Below are positions 9,356 to 23,014 of a stretch of DNA of 64,000 nucleotides, piece by piece. The translations under genes were made by a program, and so were the position numbers. The stretch is from Streptomyces sp. NBC_00271 (GTDB lineage Bacteria; Actinomycetota; Actinomycetes; Streptomycetales; Streptomycetaceae), in assembly GCF_036178845.1 (NCBI RefSeq), contig NZ_CP108070.1:7502001-7566000 (forward strand), given 5' to 3'. Under the pieces are notes generated by a model, which saw only the letters and a list, made by a program, of their open reading frames with translations, made no database searches and was not told where the DNA came from. Each line of letters begins with the position of its first letter. The first letter of the stretch is position 1.

Positions 9356-11053
9356 GTGGGACGTCACAGTCGCCGGGGGCGGGCCGGTAAGAGCGACACG
9401 GGGGAACTGCCGAGGGTTCCTGCACCCGGTGCCGCACCGGGCACGGCTCAAGGGGTGGCGCCGGGTGCGGGCCCGGCGGCGACCTCGCCGCAGGGGGCCA
9501 CGCGAGGCCCCCTGGGCCCACAACCACCGGGACCTCGACGCCCCGCGCCGACCGGCCCTCCGCCGCCCGGAACTCCCCACCCCCAGGACGGCACGCCGGT
9601 GCACGGTGTGCCGCGTTATCCGGACGGGACCCCCGCGCACGGCTTCCCGCGTCTTCCGGACGGCACGCCGGCGCACGGCTTCCCGCGGATGGCGAACGGG
9701 ACTCCGGTGCAGGGTGTTCCGCGTCTCCAGGACGGGACCCCCGCGCACGGCGTGCCGCGTTATCCGGACGGGACTCCCGCGCACGGCTTCCCGCGTCTTC
9801 CCGACGGCACGCCGGTCCACGGTGTTCCGCGGTTCGCCGATGGGACGCCCGTGCACGGCATCCCCCGTATGACCGGCGGTGCGCCCGCTCGTGAGGTGCC
9901 CCGCTCGCCGGACGGCACCCCCGCGCGTGGGGTGCCCCAGGCGCGTGCGGGACACCCCGAGCAGCGTGAACCCGGCGGTGGCTGGGGCGCGTTCAGGGGT
10001 GGCCCGCGGACGGCGGGGGCCGCGGGCGGCGGCCCGCAGGCCATGCCGCAGGCGGCGCCGCACGGCATGCCGCAGGGGGCACCCGGACCACGCATTCCCC
10101 GGCAGCGGCAGGAGGCCGACGCCGGGCTCGGACCCGGCCCGGGGCTCCGGCAGGCCTACGTCGACGCCTTCGACGAGAGCGAGAGCGACAACGAAGGCAG
10201 GACCGGGACCGACGAGCCGGGGACCGAGGAGGCGGAGAAGGGCAAGGGCGTCAAGGGGCGGGCGTTCACCGGAATCGCCGCGGCCGCCGTCACCACCGTG
10301 CTCGCCGTGGTGGTGGCCGGACAGGTCGCCGCCGGGCGGCACGACGCCACCGCGCAGACGCAGTCCGCCGCCGGTGGCGGACTGGACGCCCGCGCGTCCG
10401 CCCCGCCCGGTGACACCGGTTCGACCCCGTCCGCGACGCCGAGCGCGACACCGCTCACGTACGACCAGAAGATGGGCGTGCGGTACCCGCTCAGCGCCAC
10501 CCTCAAGGCCTCGGGGAAGTTCGACGCCGTCCGCGGGTTCGACAAGGCACCCGGAAAGGGACAGAAGTACACGTACCGGGTGGACGTGGAGAGCGGCCTC
10601 GGCCTCGACGCCGCCCTCTTCGCGCAGGCCGTCCAGAAGACGCTGAACGACAAACGGAGTTGGGCCCACAACGGCGCCCGTACCTTCGAGCGGATCTCCT
10701 CCGGCAAGCCCGACTTCGTGATCACGCTGGCCAGCCCCGGCACCACCGCCGAGTGGTGCGCCAAGTCCGGACTGGACACGACCGAGGACAACGTGTCGTG
10801 CGACTCGGCCTCCACCGAGCGCGTGATGATCAACGCGTACCGCTGGGCGCAGGGCTCCAAGACCTACGGTGACGCGATTCACCCGTATCGGCAGATGCTC
10901 ATCAACCACGAGGTCGGCCACCGCCTCGGATACGGCCATGTCACCTGCGACAAGGACGGCGAGCTCGCGCCCGTCATGCAGCAGCAGACCAAGTTCCTCG
11001 ACCATGACGGAATCCACTGTCGGGCCAACCCCTGGCCCTATCCGGGGAGTTGA
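9356..11053 (+). CDS. DUF3152 protein with metzincin-like HExxHxxGxxH motif and 12-residue repeats
   Basis: The 565-aa product has three parts. Residues about 1-300 are Pro/Gly/Arg-rich and contain ten tandem 12-residue units of the type DGTPxHGxPRxP. One transmembrane helix (TGIAAAAVTTVLAVVVAGQV) lies near residues 303-325. The extracytoplasmic C-terminal DUF3152 domain (about 360-565) carries INHEVGHRLGYGH, where His518, Glu519, His522 and His528 fit the HExxHxxGxxH zinc signature. Four Cys may form disulfides. The orientation (basic N-terminus, no signal peptide) puts the repeats in the cytoplasm. Protease activity is inference from the motif. The GTG start has GAGG six bases upstream. The mycobacterial counterpart, from memory, is Rv3207c. 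Confidence 0.88.
   Translation: MGRHSRRGRAGKSDTGELPRVPAPGAAPGTAQGVAPGAGPAATSPQGATRGPLGPQPPGPRRPAPTGPPPPGTPHPQDGTPVHGVPRYPDGTPAHGFPRLPDGTPAHGFPRMANGTPVQGVPRLQDGTPAHGVPRYPDGTPAHGFPRLPDGTPVHGVPRFADGTPVHGIPRMTGGAPAREVPRSPDGTPARGVPQARAGHPEQREPGGGWGAFRGGPRTAGAAGGGPQAMPQAAPHGMPQGAPGPRIPRQRQEADAGLGPGPGLRQAYVDAFDESESDNEGRTGTDEPGTEEAEKGKGVKGRAFTGIAAAAVTTVLAVVVAGQVAAGRHDATAQTQSAAGGGLDARASAPPGDTGSTPSATPSATPLTYDQKMGVRYPLSATLKASGKFDAVRGFDKAPGKGQKYTYRVDVESGLGLDAALFAQAVQKTLNDKRSWAHNGARTFERISSGKPDFVITLASPGTTAEWCAKSGLDTTEDNVSCDSASTERVMINAYRWAQGSKTYGDAIHPYRQMLINHEVGHRLGYGHVTCDKDGELAPVMQQQTKFLDHDGIHCRANPWPYPGS
9587..9946 (+). repeat. Ten tandem 36-bp units in the DUF3152 gene
   Basis: Ten in-frame 12-codon units, consensus DGTP(A/V)HG(V/F)PR(x)P, run without interruption. 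The last two units have drifted most. DNA identity between units is high for units 1, 2, 5 and 6, which points to recent copying. Confidence 0.9.
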
Positions 11054-11085
11054 CGGAGGGGGCGCGGGGGACCGCTGGGGCCACG

Positions 11086-11122
11086 TTGACATGCTCCGAA
11101 AGTTCGTTCATATTTCTGCGCA
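11086..11122 (+). promoter_or_regulatory. Candidate promoter giving a leaderless leader-peptide mRNA
   Basis: A perfect TTGACA at 11086-11091 is followed, after 17 bases, by CATATT (11109-11114). The A of the ATG at 11122 lies seven bases further, exactly where transcription would start. This is the only consensus -35 seen in the intergenic region before the ABC transporter operon. Confidence 0.5.
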
Positions 11123-11214
11123 TGTGGTCTAGTCATGCTGTCCGTCGCGCCGCCATCGAGCTGGCGCTGATCGGCGTGACCGCGCTCTGCGTCGCAGACA
11201 TCCACTGTCGCTGA
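11122..11214 (+). CDS. Candidate leader peptide (30 aa) upstream of the peptide ABC transporter
   Basis: The frame encodes 30 residues: MWSSHAVRRAAIELALI, then GVTALCVADIHCR. It combines two arginines, a hydrophobic core and two cysteines (residues 23 and 29) close to the stop. No SD is present, but a TTGACA promoter places the transcription start at the ATG. Short Cys-containing leader peptides are known in actinobacteria upstream of sulfur and transport genes, where translation controls the downstream genes. It ends 178 bases before the lipoprotein start. The regulatory role is inference. Confidence 0.55.
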   Translation: MWSSHAVRRAAIELALIGVTALCVADIHCR

Positions 11215-11392
11215 CGCCCGCCCTTGGCGTGTGCGTCGTGCTTCCGCTTCCGTCGTGACCCTGGGTGACCGTATTGGTCCCTGGTTTTCCGACTTCGCGA
11301 CCTTTTTGACGACCTGACGCCGGGGCAGACGTTCGTTCACTTCCGTCTCACTCCTCGTCAATCTGTCTCATCATTCGAGAGGTCGTCTTCCG

Positions 11393-13111
11393 ATGCGTCA
11401 ACCGTCCGTCATAGCCCGCCGCGTGGCCGCGGCATCCGTCACCCTGGTCGTGGCAGCGGGCGCGGCCGCCTGCGGGCCGAAGGACAACGATGCCAAGGGC
11501 GCCGGTGGCGACTCCAAGCCGCAGAAGGGAGGCACGCTCACCGTCCTCAACGCCAACCCGCAGGAGGACTTCGACCCGGCGCGCCTCTACACCTCCGGCG
11601 GCGGCAACGTTCCCTCCCTCGTCTTCCGTACGCTGACCACGCGCAACCGCGAGAGCGGGTCCGCCGGCGCCAAGGTCGTCCCGGACCTCGCCACCGACAC
11701 CGGCCGCCCGAGCGAGAACGCGACCGTGTGGACGTACACCCTGAAGAAGGGCCTCAAGTACGAGGACGGTACGCCGATCACCTCCGCCGACATCAAGTAC
11801 GGCATCGAGCGTTCCTTCGCGGCCGAGCTCTCCGGCGGAGCGCCCTACCTGCGGGACTGGCTCATCGGCGGAGCCGACTACCAGGGGCCGTACAAGGACA
11901 AGAAGGGCCTCGCTTCGATCGAGACCCCGGACGACCTGACCATCGTCTTCCACCTGAACAAGCCCGAGGGCGAGTTCCCCTACCTCGCCACGCAGACGCA
12001 GTTCACGCCCGTCCCGAAGGCCAAGGACAACGGCACGAAGTACGAGGAGCACCCGATCTCCTCCGGCCCGTACAAGGTCGTCAAGAACGAGAACGACGGC
12101 GAGCGGCTCACCCTGGAGCGCAACACCTACTGGTCCGCGGCCACCGACGCCGAGCGCAAGGCCTACCCGGACAAGATCGACGTACGGTCGGGCCTGGACT
12201 CCTCCGTGATCAACCAGCGGCTGTCCGCGTCCCAGGGCGCGGATGCCGCCGCCGTCACCACGGACACCAACCTCGGCCCGGCCGAGCTGGCCAAGGTGAC
12301 GGGTGACAAGGCGCTGGCGGCACGCGTCGGCACCGGGCACTTCGGCTACACCAACTACATCGCCTTCAACCCGAAGGTGAAGCCGTTCGACGACCCGAAG
12401 GTGCGGCAGGCGATCGCGTACGCCGTCGACCGTTCGTCGGTGATCAACGCGGCCGGTGGTTCGTCGCTGGCCGAGGCCGCGACCACGTACCTGCCGAACC
12501 AGAAGTCCTTCGGCTACACGCCCTACGACCACTTCCCGGCGGGCGCGTCCGGCAACCCGGCCAAGGCCAAGGAACTGCTGAAGGAGGCCGGTCACCCGAA
12601 CGGGATCACCGTCACCCTCACGCACTCCAACGACAAGGACTTCGAGACCAGCCCGGAGATCGCGACCGCCCTCCAGGACGCCCTGAAGAAGGCCGGGATC
12701 ACGGTCAAGCTCCAGGGCCTGGAGATCAACGACTACAAGGACAAGATCCACAGCGTCAAGAGCGAGCCGGGCTTCTTCCTCGCCCACTGGGGTGCCGACT
12801 GGCCCTCCGGCGGCCCCTTCCTGGCCCCGATCTTCGACGGCCGCCAGATCGTCAAGGACGGCGCCAACTTCAACACCGGCTTCCTCGACGACAAGTCCGT
12901 CAACGGCGAGATCGACGCGATCAACAAGTTGACGAATCTCGACGAGGCCGCCCAGCGTTGGGGCGCACTGGACAAGAAGATCGGCGAGCAGGCCCTGACC
13001 GTGCCGCTGTTCCACCCCGTCTACAAGCGCCTGTACGGCAGCGCGGTCAAGAACATCGTGATCAGCGACTGGACCGGCGTGCTGGACATCTCCCAGGTCG
13101 CGGTGAAGTAG
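11393..13111 (+). CDS. ABC transporter substrate-binding lipoprotein (family 5, oligopeptide type)
   Basis: The 572-aa product begins with a lipoprotein signal (MRQPSVIARRVAAASVTLVVAA, lipobox AAAC with Cys near 28) and then shows the SBP_bac_5 pattern: GGTLTVLNANPQEDFDPARLY, the DGTPITSADIKYGIERSF segment, and DDPKVRQAIAYAVDR. Such proteins bind oligopeptides, dipeptides or nickel outside the membrane and deliver them to the permeases. It is the first gene of a four-gene operon; the next gene starts four bases after its stop. An AGAGG site lies about ten bases before the ATG. Ligand identity is unknown. Confidence 0.92.
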   Translation: MRQPSVIARRVAAASVTLVVAAGAAACGPKDNDAKGAGGDSKPQKGGTLTVLNANPQEDFDPARLYTSGGGNVPSLVFRTLTTRNRESGSAGAKVVPDLATDTGRPSENATVWTYTLKKGLKYEDGTPITSADIKYGIERSFAAELSGGAPYLRDWLIGGADYQGPYKDKKGLASIETPDDLTIVFHLNKPEGEFPYLATQTQFTPVPKAKDNGTKYEEHPISSGPYKVVKNENDGERLTLERNTYWSAATDAERKAYPDKIDVRSGLDSSVINQRLSASQGADAAAVTTDTNLGPAELAKVTGDKALAARVGTGHFGYTNYIAFNPKVKPFDDPKVRQAIAYAVDRSSVINAAGGSSLAEAATTYLPNQKSFGYTPYDHFPAGASGNPAKAKELLKEAGHPNGITVTLTHSNDKDFETSPEIATALQDALKKAGITVKLQGLEINDYKDKIHSVKSEPGFFLAHWGADWPSGGPFLAPIFDGRQIVKDGANFNTGFLDDKSVNGEIDAINKLTNLDEAAQRWGALDKKIGEQALTVPLFHPVYKRLYGSAVKNIVISDWTGVLDISQVAVK

Positions 13112-13115
13112 CGCC

Positions 13116-14222
13116 GTGAGCGAGGCAATCGTCGCCTCTCAGGCCCCCGGGACGGACCTCGCGTCCGTCCCGGGGGCCTCGGGGGCCCGTCAGTTCTGGC
13201 GGCGGCTGCGCGCACAGCGCGCCGCCCTCGTCGCGGCGGGCGTCGTCGCACTGCTCGTCCTGCTCGCGCTCGCCGCCCCGCTGCTCACGGCGATCGAGGG
13301 CCAGGACCCGACCACCTACCACCCGTCCCTCATCGACTCGGCGCGCGGCGGTGTGCCCGTGGGCTCGTTCGGCGGCGTCAGCGGCGACCACTGGCTCGGC
13401 GTCGAACCGCAGACAGGCCGCGACCTCTTCGCCCGGCTCGTGTACGGCGCCCGGGTCTCGCTGGGAGTCGCGCTGGGGGCGACCGTCGTCCAGGTCCTCG
13501 TCGGTGTCGTGGTGGGCGTCGCGGCCGCACTCGGCAACCGATGGATCGATCAACTGTTGAGCCGGATCACCGACATCTTCGTCGCGATGCCGTTGATGAT
13601 CATGTCGCTGGCCCTGCTGGCGATCGTGCCCAGCAGCTTCCCGCGGCCCTTGCTGGTCGCGCTCGTCATCGGCCTGATCGCCTGGGGCAACACCGCGAAG
13701 ATCGTGCGCGCCCAGACCCTCACCCTCAAGGGACTGGACTACGTCTCCGCCGCGCGGCTCAGCGGCTGGAACACCTGGCGCATCGCGCGCCGCGAACTCC
13801 TGCCCGGACTGGCCGCCCCCGTCATCACCTATGCCGCGCTCCTCGTGCCGATGAACATCTCGGCCGAGGCCGCGCTGTCCTTCCTCGGCGTCGGAGTGAA
13901 GCCCCCGACGCCGTCCTGGGGGCAGATGCTCACAGCCGCCAATGTCTGGTACCAGGCGGCCCCGCAGTACCTGCTGCTGCCCGCCGGGGCGCTCTTGGTG
14001 ACCGTGCTGGCCCTGACCGTCCTCGGCGACGGCGTCCGCACGGCCCTGGACCCGCGCGCGGCCTCGCGCCTGCGCGTCGGCACGGGCCGCAAGCGGGAGG
14101 CCAAGGCGGACGCGGATTCCAAGAAAGCCGCGATGGACGCGGACTCCAAGAAGGCCGCGGCGGACGCGGACTCCAAGAAGGCCGCGGCGGACGCGAGCGT
14201 CGAGAAGGAGGCCAAGGCATGA
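13116..14222 (+). CDS. ABC transporter permease (DppC/OppC type) with repetitive C-terminal tail
   Basis: The 368-aa permease has an N-terminal helix (VAAGVVALLVLLALAAPLL) and a core of five or so membrane helices with the EAA loop around GLDYVSAARLSGWNTWRI, where it contacts the ATPase. Unusually, the C-terminus (residues 330-365) is a charged tail of four 9-residue units (A-D-A-D-S-K-K-A-A type) ending EKEAKA, absent from usual family members. The start is GTG. The stop overlaps the next gene's ATG by ATGA, indicating translational coupling. Confidence 0.92.
   Translation: MSEAIVASQAPGTDLASVPGASGARQFWRRLRAQRAALVAAGVVALLVLLALAAPLLTAIEGQDPTTYHPSLIDSARGGVPVGSFGGVSGDHWLGVEPQTGRDLFARLVYGARVSLGVALGATVVQVLVGVVVGVAAALGNRWIDQLLSRITDIFVAMPLMIMSLALLAIVPSSFPRPLLVALVIGLIAWGNTAKIVRAQTLTLKGLDYVSAARLSGWNTWRIARRELLPGLAAPVITYAALLVPMNISAEAALSFLGVGVKPPTPSWGQMLTAANVWYQAAPQYLLLPAGALLVTVLALTVLGDGVRTALDPRAASRLRVGTGRKREAKADADSKKAAMDADSKKAAADADSKKAAADASVEKEAKA
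14103..14210 (+). repeat. Four 27-bp tandem units in the permease tail
   Basis: Four in-frame nine-codon units encode K/A-A/M-D-A-D-S-K-K-A; the last is diverged. The unit length keeps frame, so copy number could vary without breaking the gene. Confidence 0.85.
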
Positions 14223-15217
14223 GCGGCTTCGGAGGATTCGTCCTGCGCCGCGCCGTCGGCACCGTGATCACCCTGCTCGCCATCTCGGTGATCGTCTACG
14301 TCGTCTTCTACGCCACCCCCGGCAACGTCGCCCAGATCACCTGCGGCCCGCGCTGCTCTCCGGAACAAGTGCACCAGGTCGCCCAGCAGTTGAGGCTCGA
14401 CGACCCGCTGTACGTGCGCTACTGGCACTTCCTGCAGGGCATCCTCGTCGGCCAGGACTTCTCCACCGGCACCTCGGTGGAGCACTGCTCGGCGCCCTGT
14501 CTCGGTCTGTCGTACCAGGGCGACACCCAGGTCACCCAGCTGATCCTGGCGAAGCTGCCGGTCAGCCTGTCCCTCGTGTTCGGCGCGATGGTGCTGTGGC
14601 TGATCCTCGGCGTCGGCACCGGCATCCTCTCCGCGTGGCGGCGCGGCCGGCTCACCGAGCGCGTGCTGACCGGCATCACCCTCGCGGGCGTCGCCACCCC
14701 GGTCTTCGTGATCGGCCTGGTGCTCATGATCGTCGTCTGCGGCCAGCTGCAACTGCTGCCCTTCCCGCAGTACGTCGGCTTCACCGACGACCCCGAACAG
14801 TGGGCCTGGAACCTGCTGCTGCCCTGGCTCTCCCTCGCCCTCATCGAGGCCGCCGCGTTCGCCCGGCTGACCAGGGCCGCGATGCTGGAGACCCTCGCCG
14901 AGGACCACATCCGGACCTTCCGGGCCTACGGCGTCGGCGAGCGGTCGATCATCGGGCGGCACGCGCTGCGCGGGGCGTTCGCGCCGATCATCGCGCTGAA
15001 CGCCAACAACGTCGGCTCGGCGGTCGGCGGCGCGGTGCTCACCGAGACGCTCTTCGGACTGCCCGGCATCGGACAGGAGCTGGTGCACGCGGTGAACGTC
15101 GTCGATCTGCCGGTGGTCGTCGGCATGGTCCTGGTCATCGGCTTCTTCGTGGTCATCGCCAACGCCGTCGCGGACGTGCTGTACGCGGTGGCCGACCGAC
15201 GGGTGGTGCTCGTATGA
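14219..15217 (+). CDS. ABC transporter permease (DppB/OppB type)
   Basis: The 332-aa product starts with a membrane helix (AVGTVITLLAISVIVYVVFYA) followed by the ATPGN motif region of DppB-type permeases, an extracytoplasmic loop with two Cys pairs (CGPRC and CSAPC), several further helices and the EAA-loop segment LAEDHIRTFRAYGVGERSII. It forms the channel with the DppC-type permease. Its ATG overlaps the previous stop and its own stop overlaps the ATPase start, both by ATGA, so the three are translated in a coupled way. Confidence 0.93.
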   Translation: MSGFGGFVLRRAVGTVITLLAISVIVYVVFYATPGNVAQITCGPRCSPEQVHQVAQQLRLDDPLYVRYWHFLQGILVGQDFSTGTSVEHCSAPCLGLSYQGDTQVTQLILAKLPVSLSLVFGAMVLWLILGVGTGILSAWRRGRLTERVLTGITLAGVATPVFVIGLVLMIVVCGQLQLLPFPQYVGFTDDPEQWAWNLLLPWLSLALIEAAAFARLTRAAMLETLAEDHIRTFRAYGVGERSIIGRHALRGAFAPIIALNANNVGSAVGGAVLTETLFGLPGIGQELVHAVNVVDLPVVVGMVLVIGFFVVIANAVADVLYAVADRRVVLV

Positions 15218-16794
15218 GCCTGGTGGAAGTCACCGACCTGACGGTCGGGTTCGGATCGCTGCGCGCCGTCGACGGCCTGTCCTTCCGGCTGGAGAAGGGC
15301 GCCGCGCTGGGCCTGGTCGGCGAGTCCGGCTCGGGCAAGTCCACGGTCGCCTCGGCCCTCCTGGGGCTGCACCGCGGCACGGGAGCCGACGTCGGCGGCT
15401 CGGTGCGCGTGGCCGGCATCGACGTACAGGAGGCGTCCGACGCCGAACTGCGGCGGCTGCGCGGCGGGAAGGCCGCCATGGTCTTCCAGGACCCCCTGTC
15501 GTCCCTCGACCCGTACTACGCGGTCGGCGACCAGATCGCCGAGGTGTACCGGGTGCACGTGAAGGTCTCCCGGCGTGCCGCACGCGCGCGTGCCGTCGAG
15601 GTGCTCGACCGCGTCGGCATCCCGGACGCCGCGCGCCGGGCGCGCTCCCGGCCGCACGAGTTCAGTGGCGGTATGCGCCAGCGCGCACTGATCGCGATGG
15701 CGCTGGCCTGCGAACCCGACCTGCTGATCGCCGACGAGCCGACCACGGCCCTCGACGTGACCGTCCAGGCCCAGATCCTCGACCTGCTGCACACGCTGCG
15801 CGAGGAGACCGGAATGGGCCTGCTCCTCGTCACGCACGACGTGGGTGTCGCCGCCGAGAGCGTCGACGAGATCCTGGTCATGCGGCACGGGCGGGCCGTC
15901 GAGCACGGCCTCGTCGGTGCCGTCCTGGGGGCGCCCGCGCAGGCGTACACCCAGGAACTCCTCGGCGCGGTGCCCCGTGTGGACGCGCCGCGCACCGCCT
16001 CCGCGGTGACGGAGGAGGTGGTTCTCGAGGCGAGCGGCCTGCGGCGCGAATTCGGACGCGGGAAGAAGGCGTTCGCGGCCGTCGACGACGTGTCGCTGAC
16101 GATCCACCGGGGCGAGACCCTCGGGATCGTGGGGGAGAGCGGCAGCGGCAAGACCACCCTGGGACGGATGCTCGTGGGGCTGCTGGAGCCCACGGCGGGG
16201 GAGATCAAGCCCGGCGGAGGCGTGCGCCCGGACGTCCAGATGGTCTTCCAGGACCCCGTCTCCTCCCTCAACCCGCGCCGCAGCGTGGGCGAGTCGATCG
16301 CCGATCCGCTGCGCGCGCAGGGGGAACGGGACGAGGGGCGCATTCGGGGGCGTGTACGGGAACTGTTGGAGCGCGTGGGGCTCGAAGCGGCGCACTACGA
16401 CCGCTACCCGCACGAGTTCAGCGGCGGACAGCGCCAGCGCGTCGGCATCGCCCGGGCGCTCGCCGCCGACCCACGCGTCATCGTCTGCGACGAACCGGTC
16501 TCCGCGCTCGACGTCACCACTCAGGCCCAGGTGATCGCCCTGCTCGCCGAACTGCAACGGGAACTCGGGCTCGCGCTCGTGTTCGTGGCGCACGACCTCG
16601 CGGTCGTCCGGCAGGTCAGCGACCGGGTCGCGGTGATGCGACGCGGCCGGATCGTCGAGTACGGGCCCGCCGACGAGGTCTACGAGTCGCCGCGCGACCC
16701 GTACACCAAGCAACTGCTGGCCGCCGTACCGGCGCTGGACCCGGAGGTCGCGGCGCAGCGACGGACGGCCCGGAGGCAGCTGACGGCGGTGTGA
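15214..16794 (+). CDS. ABC transporter fused dual ATP-binding protein (DppD-DppF type)
   Basis: The 526-aa protein has two complete nucleotide-binding domains. The first has Walker [10 protein letters not shown] near residue 36, signature [10 protein letters not shown] near 150 and Walker [13 protein letters not shown] near 170. The second has GESGSGKTT near 308, [10 protein letters not shown] near 402 and [12 protein letters not shown] near 425. It is equivalent to separate DppD and DppF subunits in one chain. It energises import by the lipoprotein and permeases encoded upstream. The gene ends the operon and is followed by a hairpin at 16871-16904. Confidence 0.94.
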
Positions 16795-16983: not shown

Positions 16984-18726
16984 GTGCGCATAGGACTGCT
17001 TACGGAGGGTGGCTATCCGTATGTGAGCGGTGACGCCAGACTCTGGTGCGACCGGCTCGTGCGCGGGCTCGAGCAGCACGAGTTCGACATCTACGCGCTC
17101 AGTCGCAGCGAGCGGCAGGAGGACGAGGGCTGGATCCAGCTGCCGCCGCAGGTCAGCCGGGTGCGGACGGCTCCGCTGTGGATGGCCGAGGACGACGGTG
17201 TGGTACACGGGCGACGGGCGCGCCGACGGTTCGCCGAGTGCTTCGGGGAGTTGGCGGCGGCGGTGTGTGCCGCACCGGCGGTCCTCGACGGCTCGGAGGC
17301 CTCTGGTGGAGTGACGGCGTCGGAGGCCTCTCGCGGAGTGGTGGCGGACCGTTTCGGCAATGCGCTGTACGGGCTCGCGGAACTGGCCCGCGACGAGGGC
17401 GGGCTGGTCGGGGCGCTGCGCTCCGAGGGGGCCGTGCGCGCCCTGGAGCGCGCCTGCCGTGCGCCCGGCGCACTGCGCGCCGCGCGTACCGCGCGCGTGC
17501 CCGACCTGCTGTCCGTCGCCGCTCACATAGAGCGCGCCCTGCGCCCCCTCTCGCTGGACTGGTACGAGGACGACGGGCTCGGCTCGGTCGACCTCTGCCA
17601 CGCGACGGCAGGCGGCGAGGCCGCCCTGCCCGGCCTGCTCGCCCTGCACTTCGCCGGGGTGCCCCTGCTGGTCACGGAGTACGGCGTGCAGCTGCGGGCG
17701 CACTACCTCGCCTCCTCCGCCGCCGAGGAGTCCTCCGCGGTACGGGCGCTGCTCGCGGCCTTCCACGGCGCGCTGGCCGCCGAGGTCTACCGCCGGGCCG
17801 CGCTCATCACGCCAGGCAACACCCACGCGCGCCGCTGGCAGGAGCGCTGCGGCGCCGACCGCGCCAAACTGCGCACCGTCTACCCCGGCATGGAGGCCGC
17901 CCGCTTCGCGGAGGTGGGCGAGCGGGCCGACGGCTCCGGATGCGCGGACCCGGACACCCTGGTCTGGGTCGGCCGCATCGAACCGGCCAAGGACCTGATC
18001 TCACTGCTGCACTCCTTCGCCGAGGTCCGCAAGGAGGCACCGAAGACCCGGCTGCGGATCGTCGGCGCGCCCGCCGACGGGCCGGAGGGCGCGCTGTACC
18101 TGGCCCACTGCAAGGCGCTGGCCGCCCAGCTCTTCCCCGACGAGGCGGAGGGCGTGCACGCGGTCGGCGACAACCCGGTGTCCTTCGAGGAGATCGGCGG
18201 CCCGGAGGTCCCGAGCCTCGCGGAGGCGTACGCGTCCGGCTCCGTGGTCGTCCTCTCCAGCGTCGTCGAAGGCTTCCCGATCAGCCTGGTCGAGGCCATG
18301 TTCTGCGGCCGCGCCACCGTGTCCACGGACGTCGGCGCGGTCGTCGAAGTCATCGGCGGTACGGGGCTGGTGGTGCCGCCGCGCAATCCGCGGGCGCTCG
18401 CCGAGGCGTGCGTGGCACTGCTGCGCGACCCCGAACGGCGTGCGCGCCTGGGCGCGGCGGCCCGCGCGCGAGCCCTCGAACTCTTCACGGTCGAACAGAA
18501 CATCACGGCATTTCACGGCATTTACCTGGAGATCGTCTCGCGCTCCCCGGTCCGGCGGCTCGTCGTGGACGACGCAGGGGATCCCCTGCCGTTCGGCGTG
18601 CCGGCCGAGGTCCACGTACCCGGTCGCTGGACCGAGGCCCGTCTCATGGTCACGGGACGCCCGCGCTGGGCGGCGGGGGCGCCGGTGCGTGCCACAGCTC
18701 CGCTGCCCGCGGGGGAGGGCGCGTGA
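16984..18726 (+). CDS. GT4 glycosyltransferase, DUF3492/PelF-like
   Basis: The 580-aa product has a DUF3492-type N-terminal half (MRIGLLTEGGYPYVSGDAR at the start) and a GT-B C-terminal half with VGRIEPAKDL near residue 328 and the E-x7-E motif in EGFPISLVE near 430, followed by TDVGAVVEV. This architecture is that of PelF, the cytosolic UDP-sugar glycosyltransferase of Pel polysaccharide. The GTG start has a GGGGGTG site about seven bases upstream. It leads a coupled operon; the next gene starts at the last base of its stop codon. Sugar specificity is unknown. Confidence 0.88.
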   Translation: MRIGLLTEGGYPYVSGDARLWCDRLVRGLEQHEFDIYALSRSERQEDEGWIQLPPQVSRVRTAPLWMAEDDGVVHGRRARRRFAECFGELAAAVCAAPAVLDGSEASGGVTASEASRGVVADRFGNALYGLAELARDEGGLVGALRSEGAVRALERACRAPGALRAARTARVPDLLSVAAHIERALRPLSLDWYEDDGLGSVDLCHATAGGEAALPGLLALHFAGVPLLVTEYGVQLRAHYLASSAAEESSAVRALLAAFHGALAAEVYRRAALITPGNTHARRWQERCGADRAKLRTVYPGMEAARFAEVGERADGSGCADPDTLVWVGRIEPAKDLISLLHSFAEVRKEAPKTRLRIVGAPADGPEGALYLAHCKALAAQLFPDEAEGVHAVGDNPVSFEEIGGPEVPSLAEAYASGSVVVLSSVVEGFPISLVEAMFCGRATVSTDVGAVVEVIGGTGLVVPPRNPRALAEACVALLRDPERRARLGAAARARALELFTVEQNITAFHGIYLEIVSRSPVRRLVVDDAGDPLPFGVPAEVHVPGRWTEARLMVTGRPRWAAGAPVRATAPLPAGEGA

Positions 18727-21835: not shown

Positions 21836-23014
21836 GTGTCGCTGCCACCCCTGGTTGAGCCAGCTGCTGAGCTCACCGTAGACGAGGTCCGCAGGTACTC
21901 CCGCCACCTGATCATTCCCGACGTGGGCATGGACGGGCAGAAGCGGCTGAAGAACGCCAAGGTGCTGTGTGTGGGCGCCGGCGGCCTCGGATCGCCGGCG
22001 CTGATGTACCTGGCCGCCGCGGGCGTGGGCACGCTCGGCATCGTGGAGTTCGACGAGGTCGACGAGTCGAACCTGCAGCGCCAGATCATCCACAGTCAGG
22101 CGGACATCGGCCGCTCCAAGGCCGAGTCGGCCCGTGACTCCGTGCTGGGCATCAACCCGTACGTGAACGTGGTCCTTCACGAAGAGCGGCTCGAGGCCGA
22201 GAACGTGATGGACATCTTCAGCCAGTACGACCTGATCGTCGACGGCACGGACAACTTCGCGACCCGCTACCTGGTCAACGACGCGTGCGTCCTGCTCAAC
22301 AAGCCGTACGTGTGGGGCTCGATCTACCGCTTCGACGGCCAGGCCTCCGTCTTCTGGTCCGAGCACGGTCCCTGCTACCGCTGCCTCTACCCGGAGCCCC
22401 CGCCGCCGGGCATGGTCCCCTCCTGCGCCGAGGGCGGCGTGCTGGGCGTGCTGTGCGCGTCCATCGGCTCCATCCAGGTCAACGAGGCGATCAAGCTTCT
22501 CGCGGGCATCGGTGAGCCGCTCGTCGGCCGCCTGATGATCTACGACGCCCTCGAGATGCAGTACCGCCAGGTCAAGGTCCGCAAGGACCCGGACTGCGCG
22601 GTCTGCGGCGAGAACCCGACCGTCACCGAGCTCATCGACTACGAGGCCTTCTGCGGTGTCGTGTCCGAGGAGGCCCAGGAGGCGGCGGCCGGCTCGACGA
22701 TCACTCCCAAGCAGCTCAAGGAGTGGATCGACGACGGCGAGAACATCGAGATCATCGACGTCCGTGAGATCAACGAGTACGAGATCGTCTCGATCCCCGG
22801 CGCCAAGCTGATCCCGAAGAACGAGTTCCTCATGGGCACCGCCCTGGAGACCCTTCCGCAGGACAAGAAGATCGTCCTGCACTGCAAGACGGGCGTCCGC
22901 AGCGCGGAGGTGCTCGCCGTGCTGAAGTCCGCGGGCTTCTCGGACGCGGTGCACGTCGGCGGCGGTGTGATCGGCTGGGTCAACCAGATCGAGCCGGAGA
23001 AGCCGGTGTACTAG
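21836..23014 (+). CDS. moeZ: Adenylyltransferase/sulfurtransferase MoeZ
   Basis: The 392-aa fusion has an E1/ThiF domain (GAGGLGS at 47-53, Arg-rich ATP site, Zn ligands in CYRCLYP and CAVCGENP) and a C-terminal rhodanese domain with active-site Cys350 in LHCKTGVRS. In actinobacteria MoeZ adenylates and sulfurates small ubiquitin-like carriers such as MoaD, ThiS and CysO, serving molybdopterin, thiamin-type and cysteine biosynthesis. It starts at a GTG with ACGGAG upstream. It is followed by a terminator hairpin, so it seems monocistronic. A moaE gene lies elsewhere in the window. Confidence 0.94.
   Translation: MSLPPLVEPAAELTVDEVRRYSRHLIIPDVGMDGQKRLKNAKVLCVGAGGLGSPALMYLAAAGVGTLGIVEFDEVDESNLQRQIIHSQADIGRSKAESARDSVLGINPYVNVVLHEERLEAENVMDIFSQYDLIVDGTDNFATRYLVNDACVLLNKPYVWGSIYRFDGQASVFWSEHGPCYRCLYPEPPPPGMVPSCAEGGVLGVLCASIGSIQVNEAIKLLAGIGEPLVGRLMIYDALEMQYRQVKVRKDPDCAVCGENPTVTELIDYEAFCGVVSEEAQEAAAGSTITPKQLKEWIDDGENIEIIDVREINEYEIVSIPGAKLIPKNEFLMGTALETLPQDKKIVLHCKTGVRSAEVLAVLKSAGFSDAVHVGGGVIGWVNQIEPEKPVY

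Follow-up and report, generated by a model that had tools for sequence, protein, structure and literature searches.

A conserved candidate cysteine-responsive leader peptide ahead of a peptide-type ABC transporter operon in Streptomyces

Here, a leader-peptide gene ahead of a peptide-type ABC transporter operon was analyzed in Streptomyces sp. NBC_00271, and we consider it probable, with some reserve, that it forms a cysteine-responsive leader-peptide attenuator in which cysteine shortage turns the transporter on. The window, i.e., the whole analyzed stretch of 64,000 nucleotides, contains on its forward strand a 30-codon frame at 11122..11214, whose translation is MWSSHAVRRAAIELALIGVTALCVADIHCR followed by the stop, with Cys residues at 23 and 29 as read before. 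The peptide was recognized by NCBIfam NF042937, 'Ms4533A family Cys-rich leader peptide', at 55.6 bits (cut-off 31) over profile positions 1-30. The first-pass annotation, which had proposed a leader-peptide layout from the sequence alone, had singled out a member of a leader-peptide family already named by NCBI, and 150 unique loci share the arrangement. Besides family membership, comparison of these sequences supports conservation of the promoter, the peptide, a UGU codon and a hairpin on the stop codon, as well as linkage to the transporter.

The promoter, found by sequence reading and a promoter scan, consists of TTGACA (11086-11091), a spacer of 17 nt and CATATT (11109-11114) on the forward strand, in agreement with the first-pass annotation, and was the only site detected between 11040 and 11420, as compared to a mean of 0.0 in 50 shuffles. 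Because CATATT lies only seven bases upstream of the ATG at 11122, the transcript is expected to begin on this ATG, i.e., the leader gene is predicted to be leaderless. The -35 element begins 35-37 nt upstream of the start codon in 139 of the 150 loci, and a NANNNT hexamer ends 6-7 nt upstream of it in 147. The stretch between the leader stop and the lipoprotein ATG at 11393 indeed measures 178 bases. On the upstream side, a gene for a DUF3152 protein (9356-11053) is separated from the leader ATG by 68 bases.

Loci for comparison were searched by protein or protein profile, not by nucleotide pattern, and the start codons of the leaders and of the binding proteins were picked by script rules. 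L030 (a protease gene matched by chance), L048, L049 and L053 (duplicates of L001, L005 and L002, respectively) and six further duplicates were removed, and matches weaker than the cut-off were left out except for L156 and L157. Of the resulting 150 unique loci, eight are from a sister family within the order; all are related, and counts over them do not represent independent events. NF042937 was found above its cut-off in 140 of 295 sampled Streptomyces genomes, in 97 of 197 genomes of the order and in 11 of 396 genomes of a phylum sample, namely four Streptomyces and seven of one other family. As the first-pass annotation had claimed, the leader stands ahead of a peptide ABC transporter: a relative of the window's SBP_bac_5 binding protein (59-94% identity) comes next on the same strand in 149 of the 150 loci. 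The sole locus with no binding protein behind the leader, L145, has kept the end of the leader peptide, is devoid of the usual promoter and looks like a decayed remnant. The downstream binding protein of L152 lacks its first part, and in L012 and L092 the leader frame continues nine codons beyond the usual stop. Moreover, among 26 genomes compared, a transporter ortholog (at least 77% identity) was present in all six genomes with the leader, the window's own included, and in none of the 20 genomes without it, where the best identity was 44%. Plasmid copies of the leader locus were searched for and not found. An Rfam scan of 11000-11500 gave five matches with E values of 0.95-4.7, all far below gathering scores, and thus no riboswitch, T-box or other catalogued cis-acting RNA.

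The operon in the window starts with the gene of a lipoprotein, a peptide-type substrate-binding protein of the SBP_bac_5 family (11393..13111; Pfam PF00496, 261.2 bits), and continues on the forward strand with permeases of the OppC type (13116..14222; PF00528, PF12911) and the OppB type (14219..15217; PF19300, PF00528) and with a fused ATPase of the OppD-OppF type carrying two ABC_tran domains (15214..16794; PF00005 in two stretches). The nearest solved relative of the binding protein is OppA2 of Streptomyces clavuligerus (2wok; 286.9 bits), and sequence narrows the substrate to classes only. Pfam analysis of 20 further flanking frames detected no cysteine or sulfate operon. A DUF3492 glycosyltransferase gene (16984-18726) follows the operon on the same strand, and ThiF and rhodanese domains are encoded at 21836-23014, about 5 kb past the operon, as in a MoeZ-like sulfur-transfer protein.

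Late Cys codons had been proposed as the sensor, and this view stands for one of the two. The codon of Cys29 (TGT, 11206..11208, forward strand) is the proposed sensor codon: in the 150-locus comparison the last Cys is encoded by TGT in every locus; L019 and the eight sister-family loci carry it one codon earlier relative to the stop. This codon was not selected for, because the loci were gathered by protein or protein profile, and in the downstream gene pieces of 146 loci TGC occurs 162 times and TGT once. Rare codons act as control codons in other attenuators. The codon of Cys23 (TGC, 11188..11190, forward strand) occupies a variable position, the residue before the VAD motif, at which 105 of 150 loci have Cys (TGC in 96, TGT in 9) and 45 have Ser, Ala or Thr; a two-Cys sensor was ruled out because only the second Cys is invariant. 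Conservation of UGU solely for pairing in the hairpin on the stop codon was found insufficient as an explanation, since all 150 leaders have UGU, whereas 82 of them have its third base paired in their best local fold. The alignment across genomes suggested by the first-pass annotation further revealed conservation of amino acids: Met1 and seven other residues are identical in nine leaders picked across three groups, and seven fixed residues exceed the need of a plain control-codon leader. For codons -21 to -1, dN/dS amounted to 0.52 (random pairs of 142 leaders), which indicates selection on the peptide that is not extreme, and the synonymous sites of the leader are constrained as well (pS 0.24).

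The same annotation had found only weak hairpins in the leader, which was not borne out when the folds were compared to 200 shuffles. P1 (1:2; 11210..11241, forward strand as all following features) is a hairpin on the stop codon of -17.6 kcal/mol (z -2.32; 5/200 shuffles fold as well). Segment 2 (11222..11239) is able to pair with segment 3 (11308..11325), the 2:3 stretch in the fold of 11221-11326 reaching -41.3 kcal/mol (z -2.44; 3/200). As seen from the folds and the clade alignment, segment 3 has the Shine-Dalgarno region as its other possible partner: in the fold of 11304-11392 and in the clade consensus, a 3:4 structure (11308..11387) of -27.9 kcal/mol (z -2.25; 6/200) buries GAGAGG (11377..11382), read from the sequence as the Shine-Dalgarno site of the lipoprotein gene. 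In these predicted folds P1, 2:3 and 3:4 of the window are mutually exclusive alternatives. P1 is additionally supported by partner changes: its 5' strand begins with GACGC in 95 of 150 leaders, of which 75 have GCGTC in the stretch that follows as compared to 11 of the 55 others, and 13 of these 55 variant leaders have a partner that exactly fits their own strand, against an expectation of 2.0. The mean z of P1 against shuffles was -3.27 in the window's clade (A), -2.03 in clade B and -1.14 in the rest.

Following this, we infer a ribosome stall, a direction of control and an output step for the window. The transcript would start on the ATG at 11122, as judged from promoter geometry, and ribosomes would enter the leader at once. 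When Cys-tRNA is ample, the ribosome would pass the single UGU of Cys29, reach UGA and depart, upon which P1 (1:2) could form and segment 3, being free, would pair with segment 4; the 3:4 structure would then bury the lipoprotein gene's Shine-Dalgarno site and keep the transporter off. When Cys-tRNA is scarce, the ribosome would halt at UGU, which lies two codons upstream of the stop, and cover segment 1, so that segment 2 could take segment 3 before segment 4 is made; the Shine-Dalgarno site would be less tightly held and the transporter turned on. In the other Streptomyces clade (B), the same sensor would act via an intrinsic terminator.

The translational output, i.e., burial of the Shine-Dalgarno site, is our proposal for clade A, which comprises 64 loci including the window and was cut at a profile score of 36 bits. 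With segment 1 covered, 2:3 of 13-19 pairs is predicted in 61 of the 64 leaders and at least 5 pairs in 63, and the 2:3 duplex has a mean z of -1.62 against shuffles, 23 of 64 lying below -2. The mean z of the 3:4 duplex is about -0.9 to -1.1 in clade A, clade B and the rest alike. For 62 clade A leaders (L087 and L152 left out), the consensus of the Shine-Dalgarno structure amounts to -48.8 kcal/mol, and 1419 of 1476 cells (96%) are paired as compared to 44-74% in slid controls; the site is paired by default in this consensus and in the window fold of 11304-11392. Double-change cells over the structure number 10 versus 2.4 in shuffles (0 of 300), a value within the slid-control range of 0-11. 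RNAalifold gave no useful structure on joined segments, whereas the whole-region alignment gave one, both with the same two leaders left out. When segment 3 is taken, the mean cost of opening the ribosome binding site decreases from 12.6 to 9.9 kcal/mol in these 62 leaders (controls 12.2 and 13.8), i.e., by 2.7 kcal/mol on average, and by more than 3 in 28 of 62 as compared to 9 and 4 in the controls. In the window, the cost drops by 1.3, from 13.0 to 11.7, with one control similar at 11.6.

Full-length equilibrium folding of 145 loci (L051, L087, L145, L148 and L152 left out) did not reveal freeing of the Shine-Dalgarno site upon stalling, its mean unpaired probability being 0.18 in the free and 0.17 in the stalled state, and a crude growth model showed only a trace of freeing in clade A, 0.17 versus 0.15 at best (L087 and L152 left out). 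When the window's leader is folded up to segment 3 and segment 1 is left free, 2:3 is still preferred over P1 as the best fold, so the scheme depends on P1 being the first to form. Under the same conditions, 41 of the 64 clade A leaders form P1. A terminator-like hairpin scored above all 15 shuffles in 13 of 62 clade A leaders. A short hairpin with a U-rich tail is located between segments 2 and 3 in part of the clade (e.g., L003, L004 and L060) and is weak in the window; where placed inside the 2:3 loop, it is no competitor of 2:3. In translation attenuators of the erm type, a ribosome stalled on a leader peptide governs access to a Shine-Dalgarno site in response to a drug. The proposal for the window's clade shares the stalled ribosome and the Shine-Dalgarno output with this type, but the signal here would be charged tRNA, and equilibrium folding does not reproduce freeing of the site.

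Clade B comprises 26 loci and, as modeled, resembles a classical transcription attenuator of the trp/his/leu kind, with 1:2, 2:3 and 3:4 pairings and an intrinsic terminator. In these leaders, pairing is predicted between the loop side of P1 and the 5' arm of a G+C hairpin that is strong and followed by a U-rich tail. The loci were picked by a sequence rule for this hairpin, which is consequently present by construction, whereas the U-rich tail was not selected; the tailed hairpin outscored each of 15 shuffles in 20 of the 26 leaders. All 26 structures contain 2:3 when segment 1 is covered; with segment 1 free, visual reading showed that P1 replaces 2:3 in 13 and that 2:3 stays in 13. The crude growth model yielded the terminator in 9 stalled versus 17 released leaders of 26, in 7 versus 12 with a stronger memory term and in 24 versus 23 when memory was omitted. 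Compared with shuffles, clade B shows no gain in 2:3 duplex stability (mean z 0.25; 0/26 below -2). The predicted leaderless start and the single control codon would distinguish the Streptomyces leaders from the trp/his/leu type, and the window has no such terminator. By the rules used, 60 of the 150 loci match neither layout, and some of them show a clade-B-like hairpin; the 2:3 duplex of these 60 has a mean z of -0.31, with two below -2.

For the window, a classical attenuator with an intrinsic terminator was rejected: no intrinsic terminator stands out (one found by the scan versus 0.3 expected), and the terminator-like hairpin is no better than shuffles (score 14.5 versus 16.6 shuffled). 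This would be in line with a Rho site in the C/U-rich, G-poor stretch at about 11332-11372, C/U-rich by sequence reading, at which a stalled ribosome would alter Rho loading. Seliverstov et al. (2005, PMC1262725) describe cys leader candidates in Mycobacterium, Propionibacterium and Bifidobacterium that have no conserved terminator hairpins, and they suggest Rho-dependent control for mycobacterial cys leaders of this kind. However, the hairpin on the stop codon as well as the 2:3 and 3:4 pairings would then need another reason, and we regard termination by Rho as unlikely.

Somewhat less likely still is an arrest peptide, in which the nascent chain, and not Cys-tRNA supply alone, would stall the ribosome and might sense another signal. 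The seven residues fixed besides Met1 and the dN/dS over codons -21 to -1 agree with a role of the chain, but a UGU fixed in all loci points to decoding of that codon, and the constrained synonymous sites imply that RNA may explain part of the conservation. The same amino-acid conservation, together with the hydrophobic core, might also reflect a small functional protein, e.g., of the membrane, which acts in trans and owes its operon position to co-expression only. This we hold to be very improbable: the fixed UGU, the partner changes in P1 and the constant place before the transporter argue for a function in cis, and related mycobacterial leaders are attenuators according to PMC9031893. Cysteine-responsive attenuation through the leader remains the preferred reading.

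Homologous leaders are found before a sulfate transporter protein. All seven relatives from the other family have a protein of the same kind behind the leader, and the one tested scored above the cut-off of TIGR00971 (sulfate ABC transporter substrate-binding protein). Scanning named genomes with a sequence pattern gave at least 120 stretches, from which 80 loci were listed: SBP_bac_5 follows in 31 and the sulfate protein in 16, 3 are truncated downstream, 7 are chance frames and 23 have no in-frame match; because the search pattern fixed TGT, it says nothing on TGT use. Among the matches listed, leaders with SBP_bac_5 behind them (at least 31) come from Streptomyces or Actinacidiphila and those with the sulfate-binding protein (at least 16; Mycobacteriales and Nakamurella) from Nocardia, Mycolicibacterium, Mycobacterium, Antrihabitans, Skermania, Prescottella and Nakamurella, and no genome has both types. 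A search at E 1e-20 did not find the sulfate-binding protein in any of nine Streptomyces genomes. Control by cysteine or sulfur supply, as proposed in the first-pass annotation, is very likely, because a Cys-containing leader is conserved with the transporter and homologous leaders precede a sulfate transporter protein. The Opp-type importer would, by implication, bring in a sulfur source, putatively a sulfur-containing substrate.

The leader family and a cysteine gauge of the same kind from mycobacteria are known already. Published reports present leaderless Cys leaders of mycobacteria as candidate attenuators (PMC4633059) and as attenuators responding to cysteine (PMC9031893), the response being reported after Canestrari et al. 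(2020) (PMC9031893, PMC9094748, PMC13236596). The window's leader is similar to Ms4533A and these leaders in family score, in its predicted leaderless start, in Cys near the stop and in its place ahead of a nutrient-uptake operon, and UGU is frequent in its relatives as well (14 TGT and 2 TGC among 16 terminal Cys codons in the seven relatives). In contrast to theirs, it precedes a peptide-type and not a sulfate transporter, and a single invariant Cys takes the place of the contiguous Cys run of the mycobacterial leaders, Cys23 and Cys29 of the window not being adjacent; because contiguous Cys codons are lacking, it was classified as a variant that would work like the mycobacterial attenuator. 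Relative to the latter, alternative RNA structures are described here for the Streptomyces type. As far as the available part of PMC1262725 goes, the cys leaders therein are likewise short ORFs with Cys codons near the stop, located ahead of sulfur genes, but are devoid of conserved hairpins, and Streptomyces is not among the cys cases.

Within the reach of our searches, the following are new: the downstream target, the invariant UGU, the stop-codon hairpin together with the structures that compete with it, and what appears to be the use of two output types in one genus. It is conceivable, although doubtful, that an old actinobacterial sensor, with a conserved nascent chain helping the stall and a single rare UGU on a stop-codon hairpin, was rewired twice: from sulfate import in Mycobacteriales to an Opp-type importer in Streptomyces, which would then take up a sulfur source, and to two outputs in one genus, with an intrinsic terminator in one clade and burial of the Shine-Dalgarno site in the other. 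A likely signal, cysteine or sulfur shortage, suggests a likely substrate class for an unstudied peptide importer. One conserved sensor with seemingly two natural outputs offers a system for the change between transcriptional and translational attenuators, and the fixed UGU makes it possible to ask, by changing one base, whether a tRNA-charging sensor is tuned through codon choice. A search of titles and abstract openings, with few subscription journals covered, found no such leader joined to a Streptomyces peptide transporter. For S. lividans, eight leader peptides are catalogued in the part of PMC8079986 at hand, none of them assigned there to cysteine. One of these leaders, metL, which is assigned to methionine and located ahead of metNIQ, has, in its printed sequence, three Cys near its end and might be a cysteine leader too (PMC8079986).
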